Origin: Zetaproteobacteria bacterium CG_4_9_14_3_um_filter_54_145
GTDB taxonomy: Bacteria; Pseudomonadota; Zetaproteobacteria; Mariprofundales; Mariprofundaceae
Direction of reading: 5' to 3'
DNA: 34,182 bases
Assembly: GCA_002791575.1 (NCBI GenBank)
Contig: PFXI01000052.1
Location: 1-34,182 of the forward strand
Shown piece after piece: positions 25,487 through 30,675 of the stretch. Position 1 is the first letter of the stretch. Each line of letters starts with the position of its first letter. Under the pieces are notes generated by a model. It was not told where the DNA came from, did not search any database, and was given only the letters and a program-made list of their open reading frames with translations. The translations under genes were made by a program, and so were the position numbers.

Positions 25487-26155
25487 TTGCGACTTGGTGG
25501 TATCTCGCCCAAGTCGCTGCTGACGGCGGTACTGGTTGTCGGTTTTCTCGCATCCATTCCGTTCTGGTTAAGCAGCAATAGCGAGGATCAGCAGCATCTG
25601 GCACAAACTGCCGTCAGGCAGATGGTGGAGAAGAATGTCGGCCTGCTGGATATTCAGCCGAAAGAGGTAGAGGAGCTGCGGCAGATGCTTGAGCCGGTTG
25701 CTGAGCCGACACAGGTTGATTTTGAACAAACAGTCTGGATGAAGGATATTGTTGGCACCATCAGCCCGTGGGTAGGTGATGAGCAGGAGGCCGAAACCAT
25801 TGCACGCTGGGTATATGTCTATTCGAAAAAATCCCGTCTGTCACCCGAACTGATTCTGGGCATCATTGCTGTGGAGTCACAGTTCGATCACTTCGCGGTC
25901 AGTAATGTCGGGGCGGTGGGTTTGATGCAGGTGATGCCATTCTGGAAAAAAGAGCTGGGCAAGCCGGATGACAACCTGCTCAAGATAGAAACCAATGTCC
26001 GCTACGGTTGCGCCATTATCCGCCACTATGTCGACCGTTACAAAACACTGGACCGGGCACTTGGCGCCTATAATGGCTCGCTCGGCAGGATGAAATACCC
26101 CAACAAGGTGTTTGCCAAAATGAAGCAGTTCAAGGCAACCGCCAGCGGTATCTGA
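25487..26155 (+). CDS. Membrane-anchored lytic transglycosylase (SLT domain)
   Basis: A 222-residue protein with an N-terminal membrane anchor (SLLTAVLVVGFLASIPFWL), a linker, and an SLT lysozyme-like domain. The catalytic glutamate is E130 in IIAVESQF. The blocks GAVGLMQVMPFW and ALGAYNGS are standard. It should cleave peptidoglycan to anhydro-muropeptides in the periplasm. The start is uncertain: TTG 25487 is the only start codon close to the anchor in this frame, with no strong ribosome binding site. The gene may be translated by coupling with proS. Confidence 0.85.
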   Translation: MRLGGISPKSLLTAVLVVGFLASIPFWLSSNSEDQQHLAQTAVRQMVEKNVGLLDIQPKEVEELRQMLEPVAEPTQVDFEQTVWMKDIVGTISPWVGDEQEAETIARWVYVYSKKSRLSPELILGIIAVESQFDHFAVSNVGAVGLMQVMPFWKKELGKPDDNLLKIETNVRYGCAIIRHYVDRYKTLDRALGAYNGSLGRMKYPNKVFAKMKQFKATASGI

Positions 26156-26161
26156 TCTGCG

Positions 26162-26323
26162 CTAGTTGACCGGTGGCCTGCCCGGAGCGGGCTGGGAATC
26201 GCGCTGACAGCGGGAGCAATATTTTGAATACCACGGCTCCTGCAATATCCGTGTCCGGCAGCCTGTGCATATGGCGCAGGTTGCGGATCTGTTATATTTG
26301 GCCACATAGTCATCTGATTTCAT
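26162..26323 (-). CDS. Small zinc-ribbon-like protein (53 aa, hypothetical)
   Basis: A 53-residue ORF starting MKSDDYVAKY, with cysteines at 16, 19, 22, 36 and 39 (C-x2-C-x2-C ... C-x2-C), basic residues around the second pair, and a proline-rich tail. The CxxC pairs 13 to 17 residues apart fit a treble-clef or zinc-ribbon fold; I know no family for it. It starts 65 bases after the hslR stop on the same strand and could share its transcript. The stop lies seven bases beyond the end of the transglycosylase gene, so it fills the gap between convergent genes. The ribosome binding site is poor, so expression is unproven. Confidence 0.55.
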   Translation of the reverse strand: MKSDDYVAKYNRSATCAICTGCRTRILQEPWYSKYCSRCQRDSQPAPGRPPVN

Positions 26324-26387
26324 GCATCCATGCTAGGCCTGTTTGTGACATCCCTGTGGCCTGCCGGTGACACAGGCAAGGCAGCAG

Positions 26388-26777
26388 TTAATCCTTACTT
26401 CTGATAAAGCGGATGATCTGGCGGCGCGCTTTTTTGTCCGGCCGTTTCTCCGGAGCAGGCGCGCTGGCGGCATGCAGCTTGCGCAACTGAGCCTGTTTGC
26501 TGCGCTCGGCAAGGCTCTGTTCCGTCTCCTGATAGAGCGATTGTGCAATGGTTGCTGAGCCGCGCTTTTCCGCCAGCCCTGTCACAGTGACGATAAAAAG
26601 CTCCTGATCGCGCTGGATCGATACCGTATCGCCGGTTTTTACACTTCTGGATGCCTTGGCGCGATCACCGTTGATCAGTATGTGACCGCCACCGGCCATC
26701 TCGCTAGCCAGACCGCGTGTTTTGAAAAAACGTGCCGCCCATAACCACTTATCAATACGTACAGCCTGATCACTCAT
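26388..26777 (-). CDS. hslR: S4-domain RNA-binding heat shock protein 15 (HslR)
   Basis: A 129-residue S4-domain protein. The S4 motif is at the N-terminus (RIDKWLWAARFFKTRGLA and GHILINGDRAKAS), followed by a basic tail (KRPDKKARRQIIRFIR). HslR binds stalled 50S subunits carrying nascent chains and helps recycle them. Length matches the E. coli protein (133). A TAGATT lies six bases before the start codon and there is no clear ribosome binding site. Confidence 0.93.
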   Translation of the reverse strand: MSDQAVRIDKWLWAARFFKTRGLASEMAGGGHILINGDRAKASRSVKTGDTVSIQRDQELFIVTVTGLAEKRGSATIAQSLYQETEQSLAERSKQAQLRKLHAASAPAPEKRPDKKARRQIIRFIRSKD

Positions 26778-26816
26778 GCGCTGAATCTATCCGGCTGCAT
26801 GCAATAGGGAATCCCT

Positions 26817-26835
26817 GATTGCGCGGCTATTCCAC
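26817..26835. repeat. 19-base direct repeat, left copy
   Basis: GATTGCGCGGCTATTCCAC matches the right copy at 27761-27779 in 18 of 19 bases. The two copies bracket the bacterioferritin-like gene in a 944-base repeat-to-repeat unit. Flanking bases do not match. Confidence 0.75.
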
Positions 26836-26965
26836 CTGTCGGCTGCAAATCAGATCGGCACGGGTGAAGATACGGTCAGTTTTCCAGCGTCATGGGCATA
26901 TGGCCAGACGCTGATCGATATATCGGTGAACGCGCACTCTGCTTTCTGACGTGGAAAAGACTCAC

Positions 26966-27053: not shown

Positions 27054-27494
27054 ATGGAATCTGAAGTGAAAGCAAGAATCATCGATACCCTCAACCGCAT
27101 TCTGGAGCTTGAGCTGGCCGGGGTGGTTCGCTACACCCACTACGCGTTGATGGTGTTCGGTTACAGCCGCATCCCGATCGTCTCGTGGCTGAAGGAGAAT
27201 GCCGCCGAGAGTCTCGATCACGCTCACCGGGCAGGCGAGATAGTCACCATGCTCGGCGGCCATCCGTCGCTCGGCATCGGACCGCTACTGGAGTCGGAGA
27301 AGCACGATATCGGCGATATCCTGCGCGAGAGTCTGGAACACGAGCAGTTGGCGGTAGCGTGCTACCACGAATTGCTTAGGGCCGCCGAAGGCAGCTCGGT
27401 CGTGATCGAGGAGTATGCGCGTGAGATGATCGCAGCCGAGGAGATGCACTGCGACGCGGTCAACAAGATGTTGCGCAAGCCGGGAGAAATTTAG
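27054..27494 (+). CDS. Bacterioferritin-like ferritin-family protein
   Basis: A 146-residue four-helix ferritin-like protein, shorter than typical bacterioferritin (about 158). The conserved acidic and histidine ligands are visible: E20 region in helix A, E52 in AESLDHAH, E95 in ESLEHEQ, and E129-x-x-H132 in AAEEMHCD. The second site normally reads E-x-x-H; here it reads E52-S-L-D55-H56, so metal ligation may differ. It has a strong AAAGGAGG site seven bases before ATG and its own promoter. It should bind or oxidise iron in the cytoplasm; it may instead be a bacterioferritin-domain protein without a cage. It is flanked by the direct repeats and seems more GC-rich than neighbouring sequence, consistent with acquisition. 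Confidence 0.8.
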   Translation: MESEVKARIIDTLNRILELELAGVVRYTHYALMVFGYSRIPIVSWLKENAAESLDHAHRAGEIVTMLGGHPSLGIGPLLESEKHDIGDILRESLEHEQLAVACYHELLRAAEGSSVVIEEYAREMIAAEEMHCDAVNKMLRKPGEI

Positions 27495-27808: not shown

Positions 27809-27817
27809 CGATAGTTG

Positions 27818-29083
27818 ATGAACAACCATATGCCACCTACAGACGTCGCTCCGGGAGTTCTTGCCTGCCACGGATGCGATCTGGTCTATCAACTCGAGGA
27901 TCTGCCGGTTGGCAGCAAGGCACTGTGCAACCGCTGCGGTGCCCTGTTGCGACGCCATGTTGCCAATAGTGTGGAGCGCTCGCTGGCATTGAATATCGCA
28001 GCACTCTTCAGCTTTGTCATCGCCAATGCGTTCCCTTTCCTGTCGCTGGAGGTGATGGGGCGCATTGAGGAGACCCGGCTGATTACCGCCGCTGTGGCGC
28101 TCTACAAAGCAGGGATGTGGGAGTTGGGCCTGCTGGTCTTTCTGACCAGTGTGCTGTTTCCGCTGATGACACTGCTCGGTATGCTCTATGTGCTGTTGCC
28201 CGCCCGTTTCGCCATCCGCCTGCCGGGGGTGGCGCTGGTCTTCCGCATTGTTTGCAACGTGAACCCATGGAGCATGCTGCAGGTGTTGATGCTCGGCGTA
28301 CTGATTGCCATTGTTAAACTGCTGGATCTGGCTGATATTATTCCCGGCATCGGTTTTTTTGCCTTTATTGCCCTGCTTGCCCTGACCACTGCCGCATATG
28401 CCAACTTCGATGCGGCGGCGCTGTGGCCCTTTTCCCGACCGGTTGCGGAGCATCAGCAGGCGGGTGTAACGGCTGCGCAGAAGAACCTGATCCACTGCCA
28501 TACCTGTGCCCTGCTGGTTTCCGCCAACGTCGCGCATGAGAGCCAGGCCTGCTGTCCGCGCTGCCGTACACCTCTGCACCGGCGCAAGGTAAATAGCATC
28601 AACAGAACATGGGCGTGGGTGATATCGGCTTGTTTGCTGCTGATTCCTGCCAACCTCTACCCGGTGATGACGGTTATTCATTTCGGCCAGGGCGAACCGA
28701 GCACGATTCTCAGCGGTGTGATTCAGCTGATTGATAGCGGCATGTGGCCGCTGGGCATGATTGTGTTGATCGCCAGTATCCTGATCCCGGTCATGAAGCT
28801 GGTTGTCCTTGTCTTTCTGTTGATCACGGTCAGGCTGAAATCACGCTGGCGATTGCGTGATCGCTCGGTGCTCTATCGCATCACCGAACTGGTCGGCGCC
28901 TGGTCAATGGTGGATATTTTCCTGATTGCCCTGCTCACCGGGCTTGTTAATATGGGTACGCTGGCTTCGGTCAGGCCGGAGGTCGGCGCAATATTCTTCG
29001 CGGCTGTTGTGGTCACTACTATTTTTGCCGCCAGCAGTTTTGACCCGCGCCTGATCTGGGATCACGAGGAAGAGAGGCAATGA
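27818..29083 (+). CDS. pqiA: Paraquat-inducible protein A (PqiA/LetA family)
   Basis: A 421-residue inner-membrane protein with two similar halves. Each half begins with a zinc ribbon (CHGCDLVYQL...CNRCGALL and CHTCALLV...CPRCRTPL) and continues with about four membrane segments, including the repeated SVLFPLMTLLG and ASILIPVMKLVVL blocks. It is the membrane partner of the MCE tunnel protein encoded next and probably moves lipids between inner and outer membranes. ATG 27830 is an alternative start. The ATGA overlap with pqiB shows co-translation. Confidence 0.92.
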   Translation: MNNHMPPTDVAPGVLACHGCDLVYQLEDLPVGSKALCNRCGALLRRHVANSVERSLALNIAALFSFVIANAFPFLSLEVMGRIEETRLITAAVALYKAGMWELGLLVFLTSVLFPLMTLLGMLYVLLPARFAIRLPGVALVFRIVCNVNPWSMLQVLMLGVLIAIVKLLDLADIIPGIGFFAFIALLALTTAAYANFDAAALWPFSRPVAEHQQAGVTAAQKNLIHCHTCALLVSANVAHESQACCPRCRTPLHRRKVNSINRTWAWVISACLLLIPANLYPVMTVIHFGQGEPSTILSGVIQLIDSGMWPLGMIVLIASILIPVMKLVVLVFLLITVRLKSRWRLRDRSVLYRITELVGAWSMVDIFLIALLTGLVNMGTLASVRPEVGAIFFAAVVVTTIFAASSFDPRLIWDHEEERQ

Positions 29084-30675
29084 CTGAACAACAAACTGAT
29101 GCCGGCAAAGGCAGTCTTGCCAGCCCGGAGATTAAGAGATCGCCGCGGATTTCACTGGTATGGCTGATTCCTATCCTCACCGCTGTGATCGGCGGCTGGC
29201 TTATCGTCAAGACAATTGCCGAGCAGGAGCCGGAAATTTCCATTACCTTCAAATCGGCAGAGGGGATTGAGGCCGGCAAAACCCGGGTTAAATACAGGGA
29301 TCTGGATGTGGGCGTAGTTGAATCAGTGCGGCTGAGCGATGACTTCTCCCAGGTGGAGTTGCGAGCGAAAATATCCAGAGGTGCCGAAACCCTGCTGCAT
29401 AAGCGCACCCGCTTCTGGGTCGTCAAACCCCGTCTCGGGATGAGCGGCATATCCGGGCTGAGTACACTGGTCTCCGGTGTGTATGTGGCGCTGGAGCCCG
29501 GTGATGGCCCTGTTGCCAGTGTCTTTACCGGTCTGGATCAGCCGCCGCGCATCATGCCGGGCGAGAGGGGCACGGAGATCACGCTGGTCGCCGACCGACT
29601 CGGTTCTCTGGATATCGGCTCCCCTGTCTACTACCAGGGCCTGCAGGCAGGTGAGGTGCTGGGCTATGAGCTGACAGAGGAGAAGAAAAACGTTCTTGTC
29701 TATCTGTTTATCAAGGCGCCGTTCGATGCGCTGGTACACAGCAATTCACACTTCTGGAATGTTGGCGGACTGGATGTGTCGCTTGGCGTTAATGGTGTCG
29801 ATGTCCATGTCGAGTCGATGAAAAGCCTGTTGCTGGGCGGTGTTGCCTTTGAAACGAGCGACTCACTGGCACACAGCGGCCAGGTGGAAAAAGGGCAACA
29901 CTTCACACTGTTCAATAATCACACCGACATTGCCTCGAATGCCGACACCAGGGGCGAAACATTCATCGCCTATTTCGATAACTCGGTGCGCGGACTGGTG
30001 GTCGGCGCACCGGTGGAGTTCAAGGGGATTACCATCGGTTCGGTTGCCGAACTGCGACTGGAGTTCAACCAGCAGGATACCAGTTTCCGTATCCCGGTGC
30101 TGCTTGAGATCTCCTTTCAGCGACTGGCTGAAAGCGGGGTGAGTGCGGATGTCGATACCAAGAAGCTGCTGGATCAGTTGATTGCCAAGGGGCTCAGGGC
30201 GCAACTGCGCACCGGTAACCTGCTGACCGGCAAGCTATTTGTGGAGTTGGATATGCATCCGGATACGGCCGTACAATTGCGCGCGGACAACAGCATCACC
30301 TTCCTTGAACTGCCTACCATTCCGGGTAATTTTGACCGCATGGCGACATCGGTACAAAACACACTGGCCAAACTGGAACGGGTCGATATTGAGGCGATTG
30401 CGGGTGAGCTGCAGCAATCCCTGCGCGCGCTACATCATCTGCTCGCCACCATGGATCAGCATGCCGGACCGGTTGTGGTAAATATGGATCAGACACTGCT
30501 CAAAGCCAGAACCACGCTGGAGTTGTTGAACAGGCAGCTGAAAGCCGGCTCGCCTGCTATCCGCATGACTGAAGAGTTGAGTGAGACTGCCCGCTCCATT
30601 CGTGAGCTGGTTGATATGCTGGAACGCAATCCCGAGTCTGTCATTATCGGCAAGCCGAAAGCGGGAGGGAAATGA
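29080..30675 (+). CDS. pqiB: MCE/MlaD-domain protein PqiB
   Basis: A 531-residue protein (E. coli PqiB has 546) with a short cytoplasmic tail, one membrane segment (LVWLIPILTAVIGGWLIV, about 26-44) and three MCE domains (about 49-140, 160-255 and 288-395). Each MCE starts with a V-x-Y/F-x-G/D-x-x-V/I-G type strand (KYRDLDVGVV, YYQGLQAGEV, EFKGITIGSV). A long C-terminal coiled helix would form the periplasmic needle. It works with PqiA and the lipoprotein PqiC in lipid transport. Both ends overlap neighbours by four bases. Confidence 0.94.
   Translation: MTEQQTDAGKGSLASPEIKRSPRISLVWLIPILTAVIGGWLIVKTIAEQEPEISITFKSAEGIEAGKTRVKYRDLDVGVVESVRLSDDFSQVELRAKISRGAETLLHKRTRFWVVKPRLGMSGISGLSTLVSGVYVALEPGDGPVASVFTGLDQPPRIMPGERGTEITLVADRLGSLDIGSPVYYQGLQAGEVLGYELTEEKKNVLVYLFIKAPFDALVHSNSHFWNVGGLDVSLGVNGVDVHVESMKSLLLGGVAFETSDSLAHSGQVEKGQHFTLFNNHTDIASNADTRGETFIAYFDNSVRGLVVGAPVEFKGITIGSVAELRLEFNQQDTSFRIPVLLEISFQRLAESGVSADVDTKKLLDQLIAKGLRAQLRTGNLLTGKLFVELDMHPDTAVQLRADNSITFLELPTIPGNFDRMATSVQNTLAKLERVDIEAIAGELQQSLRALHHLLATMDQHAGPVVVNMDQTLLKARTTLELLNRQLKAGSPAIRMTEELSETARSIRELVDMLERNPESVIIGKPKAGGK

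Follow-up and report, generated by a model that had tools for sequence, protein, structure and literature searches.

A small zinc-finger-like protein gene, very probably genuine and with predicted metal binding, between hslR and a transglycosylase gene in Mariprofundus

The convergent hslR and SLT transglycosylase-like genes of a Mariprofundus genome are separated by a gap of 232 nt, which raises the question of whether the gap holds a further gene and, if so, what kind of protein it might encode. The window, by which we mean the whole stretch of DNA analysed (34,182 nt), does contain an ORF there. The initial annotation had claimed a 53-residue multi-cysteine protein at positions 26162-26323, giving no strand; the ORF is present exactly there, on the minus strand, with 53 codons and the product MKSDDYVAKYNRSATCAICTGCRTRILQEPWYSKYCSRCQRDSQPAPGRPPVN, and the plus frame starting at 26162 has two stops. 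It fills the gap as described, with 6 nt separating it from the SLT gene and 64 nt from hslR, and both neighbours carry the Pfam domains that agree with the names given to them (Table 1). Our comparison of this ORF with its relatives indicates that it is very probably a real gene for a small zinc-finger-like protein, for which metal binding is predicted from the sequence.

Table 1. Positions, strands and supporting observations for the small ORF, its predicted functional residues and its two neighbours in the window.
Feature	Position	Strand	Observation
53-aa C4 zinc-finger-like microprotein gene, putative (P0001)	26162..26323	-	ORF, homologues, excess synonymous change
First predicted metal-binding pair, C19-x2-C22	26258..26269	-	Invariant, 6/6 copies
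Second predicted metal-binding pair, C36-x2-C39	26207..26218	-	Invariant, 6/6 copies
PWYS motif (P30-S33), flanked by the two cysteine pairs; invariant P, W and S	26225..26236	-	6/6 copies
C16, fifth cysteine, window copy only	26276..26278	-	Other five copies: F, F, R, F, I
hslR (S4 domain, Hsp15-like), upstream neighbour, same strand as the ORF	26388..26777	-	Pfam S4, E=5.3e-11
SLT transglycosylase-like gene, convergent neighbour of the ORF	25487..26155	+	Pfam SLT, E=1.6e-20

The ORF is preceded by a weak ribosome-binding site (GGA, 3 nt before the ATG). Because the stretch that separates it from hslR has no terminator-like site on the minus strand, and no promoter-like site was found in 26050-26900, its expression would probably rely on read-through of transcription from hslR, which lies 64 nt upstream. 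A terminator-like site does lie just past the end of the ORF (26143-26124), and such sites are no more frequent than chance expects. Elsewhere in the window, a 146-aa ORF on the plus strand (27054-27494), presumably encoding a ferritin-type protein, is located between hslR and a gene that we take to be PqiA-like (27815-29083, plus strand), which has C-x2-C pairs of its own and is followed by a presumably MCE-like gene (29080-30675); the 146-aa ORF is absent in M. ferrooxydans PV-1 (locus L032).

Relatives of the small protein were sought with the single window sequence in 61 related genomes. Mariprofundus ferrooxydans PV-1 (G003, NZ_DS022294.1) has, at 215007-215174, a full-length syntenic ORF that is 54% identical (E 1.6e-14), and four non-syntenic copies were found in three genomes: one in G009 (E 3.7e-7), one in G019 (E 3.2e-6) and two in G016, on contigs C45 (E 2.7e-6) and C97 (E 1.9e-5; the alignment crosses that copy's own stop, the cysteine core being stop-free). 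Including the window, the family thus has six copies. Up to E 1, matches were listed in 47 of the 61 genomes; those other than the copies have E-values of about 0.01 or above and were treated as noise. A profile built from five of the copies gives E about 1e-26 for those same five; the G016:C97 value (E 1.6e-11) is therefore the only independent one. Applied to the 23 genomes of the genus, this profile finds matches in five at E<=0.01, three of them among the 16 genomes of good quality.

Wider searches added no further member. Eight of 78 genomes of the class match at E<=0.01, namely the five already known and three with weak matches, which we reject: the G093 match (E 0.0045) is a chance four-cysteine pattern within a 515-aa ORF that is read in another frame and that we take to be asparagine-synthase-like; that of G036, with one cysteine pair only, and that of G034, which has just the first pair and runs into the end of a long ORF in the opposite direction, presumably dUTPase-like, were also judged to be due to chance. 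We found no convincing copy in the 55 class genomes outside the genus. In a phylum sample that includes the genus members, at least 6 of 398 genomes match at E<=0.001 when the best candidates, at most 17 per listed genome, are scored; these are the five known genomes and G172, whose match (E 0.001) holds a stop. A search of genome contigs for close relatives gave 225 pattern matches with the single sequence, none of them confirmed, and 20 with the five-row alignment, of which four were confirmed, all in Mariprofundus/Zetaproteobacteria already among our genomes; the five-row pattern is a narrow one that misses the sixth copy. Two scans of viral contigs with that pattern yielded ten matches and no confirmation, and neither plasmids, with the window protein as query, nor phages, with the G009 member, gave any match. 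Among the genomes searched, the family is restricted to Mariprofundus and is patchy there, which suggests gain and loss within the genus. Our literature search retrieved no paper joining Mariprofundus, small protein and zinc.

The alignment of the six copies defines what the family keeps. C19, C22, C36 and C39, together with P30, W31 and S33, are present in all of them, giving the pattern C-x2-C-x13-C-x2-C with PW-x-S in between; the segment between the pairs reads PW[YH]S, and the N-terminal portion, like the polar tail at the C-terminus, is variable. The initial annotation had read a C-x2-C-x2-C cluster followed by C-x2-C. All five cysteines exist in the window protein (C16-x2-C19-x2-C22 and C36-x2-C39), but the triple cluster is not conserved, C16 being peculiar to this copy. 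By contrast, the conserved cysteines that the same annotation proposed to look for in relatives were found, both C-x2-C pairs lying in open frames in every copy. All proteins are shorter than 70 residues, 53 aa in the window and 39-55 aa in the relatives, the value of 39 reflecting an internal ATG that we chose for G016:C97 within a 52-aa frame beginning with TTG; likewise, the start methionine is common to the six copies, but the starts were chosen by us.

Gene neighbourhood offers two competing explanations of function. The first holds that the ancestral gene followed one coding for an EAL-CBS-GGDEF protein, and that the small protein would tune that or another such enzyme of c-di-GMP metabolism. 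Two of the six copies (G019:C10 and G016:C97) do follow such a gene directly and on the same strand (L065:4298-6377 and L063:2950-5208, respectively), the domains having been assigned by Pfam on the G019 gene, to which the G016 gene is 66% identical. In addition, several zinc-finger microproteins of Haloferax affect biofilm formation versus swarming, in archaea, which the study notes do not use c-di-GMP (PMC6562870). Nevertheless, we consider this explanation unlikely: at E<=1e-100 the EAL-CBS-GGDEF gene occurs in only 4 of the 23 genomes of the genus, two of which (G010 and G017) carry it without the small ORF, it is without a match in the window genome at the same threshold, and neither of the window neighbours is a c-di-GMP gene. 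The two remaining non-syntenic copies have other surroundings, 318 nt after a BON-domain gene in G009 and facing a cNMP-binding-domain gene in G016:C45. The latter is a 5.6-kb contig with near-identical inverted ends beside the small ORF (L064, 1-230 and 5313-5555), perhaps a repeat or an assembly artefact.

The second explanation develops the link to RNA or the ribosome that the initial annotation had drawn from the position after hslR: the protein would be a ribosome-rescue partner, encoded in an operon with hslR and binding through its finger to rRNA or the 50S subunit alongside Hsp15. The common strand, the short distance and the lack of a terminator-like site in between speak for it, the gene order is kept in PV-1, and many small zinc fingers are ribosomal. 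This arrangement is, however, the exception. An hslR match exists in 20 of the 23 genus genomes and an SLT match in 22, yet the ORF adjoins either gene only in the window and PV-1 (2/20 and 2/22; some of these loci are cut by contig ends), and a scan of the collected loci for the cysteine motif retrieved, among those linked to hslR or SLT, these two alone. Even in PV-1 the gap to hslR measures 160 nt instead of 64 nt, and the other four copies are located elsewhere. In G017 (L093, G017:C56) hslR is followed on the same strand by a homologue of the EAL-CBS-GGDEF gene (43% identical) without the small ORF. A family that is patchy and not tied to one neighbour argues against a ribosome-rescue link, which we regard as decidedly improbable; a neighbour such as hslR can mislead on function.

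A more basic doubt is whether the ORF codes for anything. It could be a chance ORF without function, its similarity to PV-1 being the residual identity of close relatives. Its length is indeed unremarkable, given that 22.7% of 5000 base-shuffled gaps hold an ORF of at least 53 aa on either strand (P 0.23), and its raw codon score (-0.18 per codon) resembles that of spurious ORFs, 31% of 88 such ORFs scoring as high and none of 157 slices of real genes as low. This raw score seems largely due to amino-acid make-up, because codon choice for the given amino acids tends towards the usage of the window's genes (0.045 against a random mean of -0.165, P 0.019; 13.9% of 137 real-gene slices are as low). 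What speaks against chance is that the four cysteines and PW-x-S recur in four non-syntenic copies and that synonymous change is in excess between the window and PV-1. The latter test, proposed with the initial annotation and positive here, relies on a single pair of 50 codons, in which pS is 0.57 and pN 0.29 (0.80 and 0.20 in codons 17-40). Of the other five frames, four have pS < pN; the exception, the anti 1 frame (pS 0.47, pN 0.30), has stops in both sequences. When the same number of changes was introduced at random (20,000 stop-free outcomes), the observed pS-pN was reached in 0.9% of cases (P 0.009), the amino-acid identity in 0.3% (P 0.003) and the retention of the four cysteines in 1.2% (P 0.012). 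It is therefore conservation, not length, that marks this ORF as a putative gene, and the chance explanation appears very improbable.

The DNA common to the non-syntenic copies centres on the coding core (about 20-50 nt), a short conserved stretch that might instead be an RNA or DNA element in which the ORF is incidental, but this is the least credible alternative, almost to be dismissed, as no Rfam match up to E 1 was found in 25900-26900, third codon positions vary most (14, 15 and 24 differences between window and PV-1 at the first, second and third positions of the 50 codons) and the protein is better conserved than under random substitution at equal DNA divergence. We also rejected a mobile cassette: once the flanks that the window shares with PV-1 by synteny, and the EAL gene common to G019 and G016:C97, are set aside, the copies have only the coding core and a few scattered matches of 14-35 nt in common. 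We hold with high confidence that the ORF is coding, and the small multi-cysteine protein gene of the initial annotation is very probably genuine, with C-x2-C pairs in open frames and a synonymous bias.

Predicted structures are of low confidence. The AlphaFold model of the window protein (pLDDT 63.8, pTM 0.39) contains a helix at residues 4-12, strands at 15-18 and 25-28 and a helix at 37-43, with the second cysteine pair at the start of this last helix. In treble clefs, the first cysteine pair is located in a beta hairpin and the second at the start of a helix. The window model would show this order of elements, at a pLDDT of 64, and the model of another member (pLDDT 66.7) lacks the hairpin, with no strand of at least three residues. 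With the window model as query, Foldseek returned nine matches at E<=10, of which none reached E<=0.001, and VIA-align no chain out of 13 at Z>=2. At the sequence level, the window protein has one unrelated Pfam match (E 0.12; 12.3 bits for a cut-off of 27) and no zinc-ribbon family up to E 10, no NCBIfam match up to E 10, and none in PHROGs and PADLOC at the limits used. Other members have weak matches, largely to zinc-ribbon-type models, with best E-values of 0.0037 in Pfam, 0.0033 in NCBIfam, 0.0028 in PHROGs and 0.0065 in PADLOC; no library match identifies the PW-x-S motif.

Our preferred reading is that the ORF is translated into a one-domain C4 microprotein that binds a metal, most likely zinc, and acts as a regulator or adaptor, which we judge likely as a whole. 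Taking the ORF as coding, we have considerable confidence in the putative metal site and far less in any one specific function, and the assignment to C4 zinc-finger-like microproteins is well supported by the cysteine pattern. The two C-x2-C pairs, 13 residues apart, would hold one metal ion with the PW[YH]S segment between them, and the protein might then bind a partner protein or nucleic acid as a small regulator or adaptor, partner binding being a guess. It is most likely not an enzyme, because so little protein surrounds the metal site. A more specific proposal, in which this genus-restricted family with its shifting neighbourhoods provides a metal- or redox-responsive adaptor, some copies of which serve a c-di-GMP enzyme and link metal state to the decision between stalk or biofilm and motile life, seems to us quite unlikely. 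If confirmed, the microprotein would represent a new small-protein family in little-studied iron oxidisers, as well as a candidate metal-linked regulator in the iron-oxidising Mariprofundus. It also illustrates a small-protein gene that could be recovered by comparison only: length and raw codon score are noise-like, and six copies keep the putative metal site.

Several known families share elements of this architecture. Pairs of C-x2-C are typical of the zinc-ribbon-type Pfam families DZR, Auto_anti-p27, DNA_ligase_ZBD, YacG and YnfU. Among five members, one or two match these families weakly (best E-values from 0.0037 to 0.47), but the window protein gives no match to any of them at E-values up to 10. 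The archaeal RNA polymerase subunit Rpo12/P, a tiny zinc protein, was the best match in a PDB sequence search; it differs in that the best stretch aligns over 15 residues only (E 0.12, not significant). The closest likeness is to the one-domain C(P)XCG microproteins of Haloferax volcanii, which, as the window protein, have fewer than 70 aa and two C-x2-C pairs. They are, however, archaeal and without convincing sequence relation to the window family: the NCBIfam models HVO_2142 and HVO_2523 match other members at best E-values of 0.06 and 0.18 and the window protein not at all, and the glycine after the second cysteine of C(P)XCG is absent in the window protein, which reads CTGCR and CSRCQ. 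HVO_0758 (56 aa) consists of an N-terminal helix and one zinc-finger core (PMC10716476), deletion of Haloferax zinc-finger microproteins made a difference under one or more of four conditions in 12 of 16 mutants (PMC6562870), and zinc binding was seen in only 9 of 14 such proteins, binders and non-binders being indistinguishable by AlphaFold2 (PMC11241148). Our find is best read as a small, lineage-restricted adaptor or regulator of the C4 zinc-finger microprotein kind already known.
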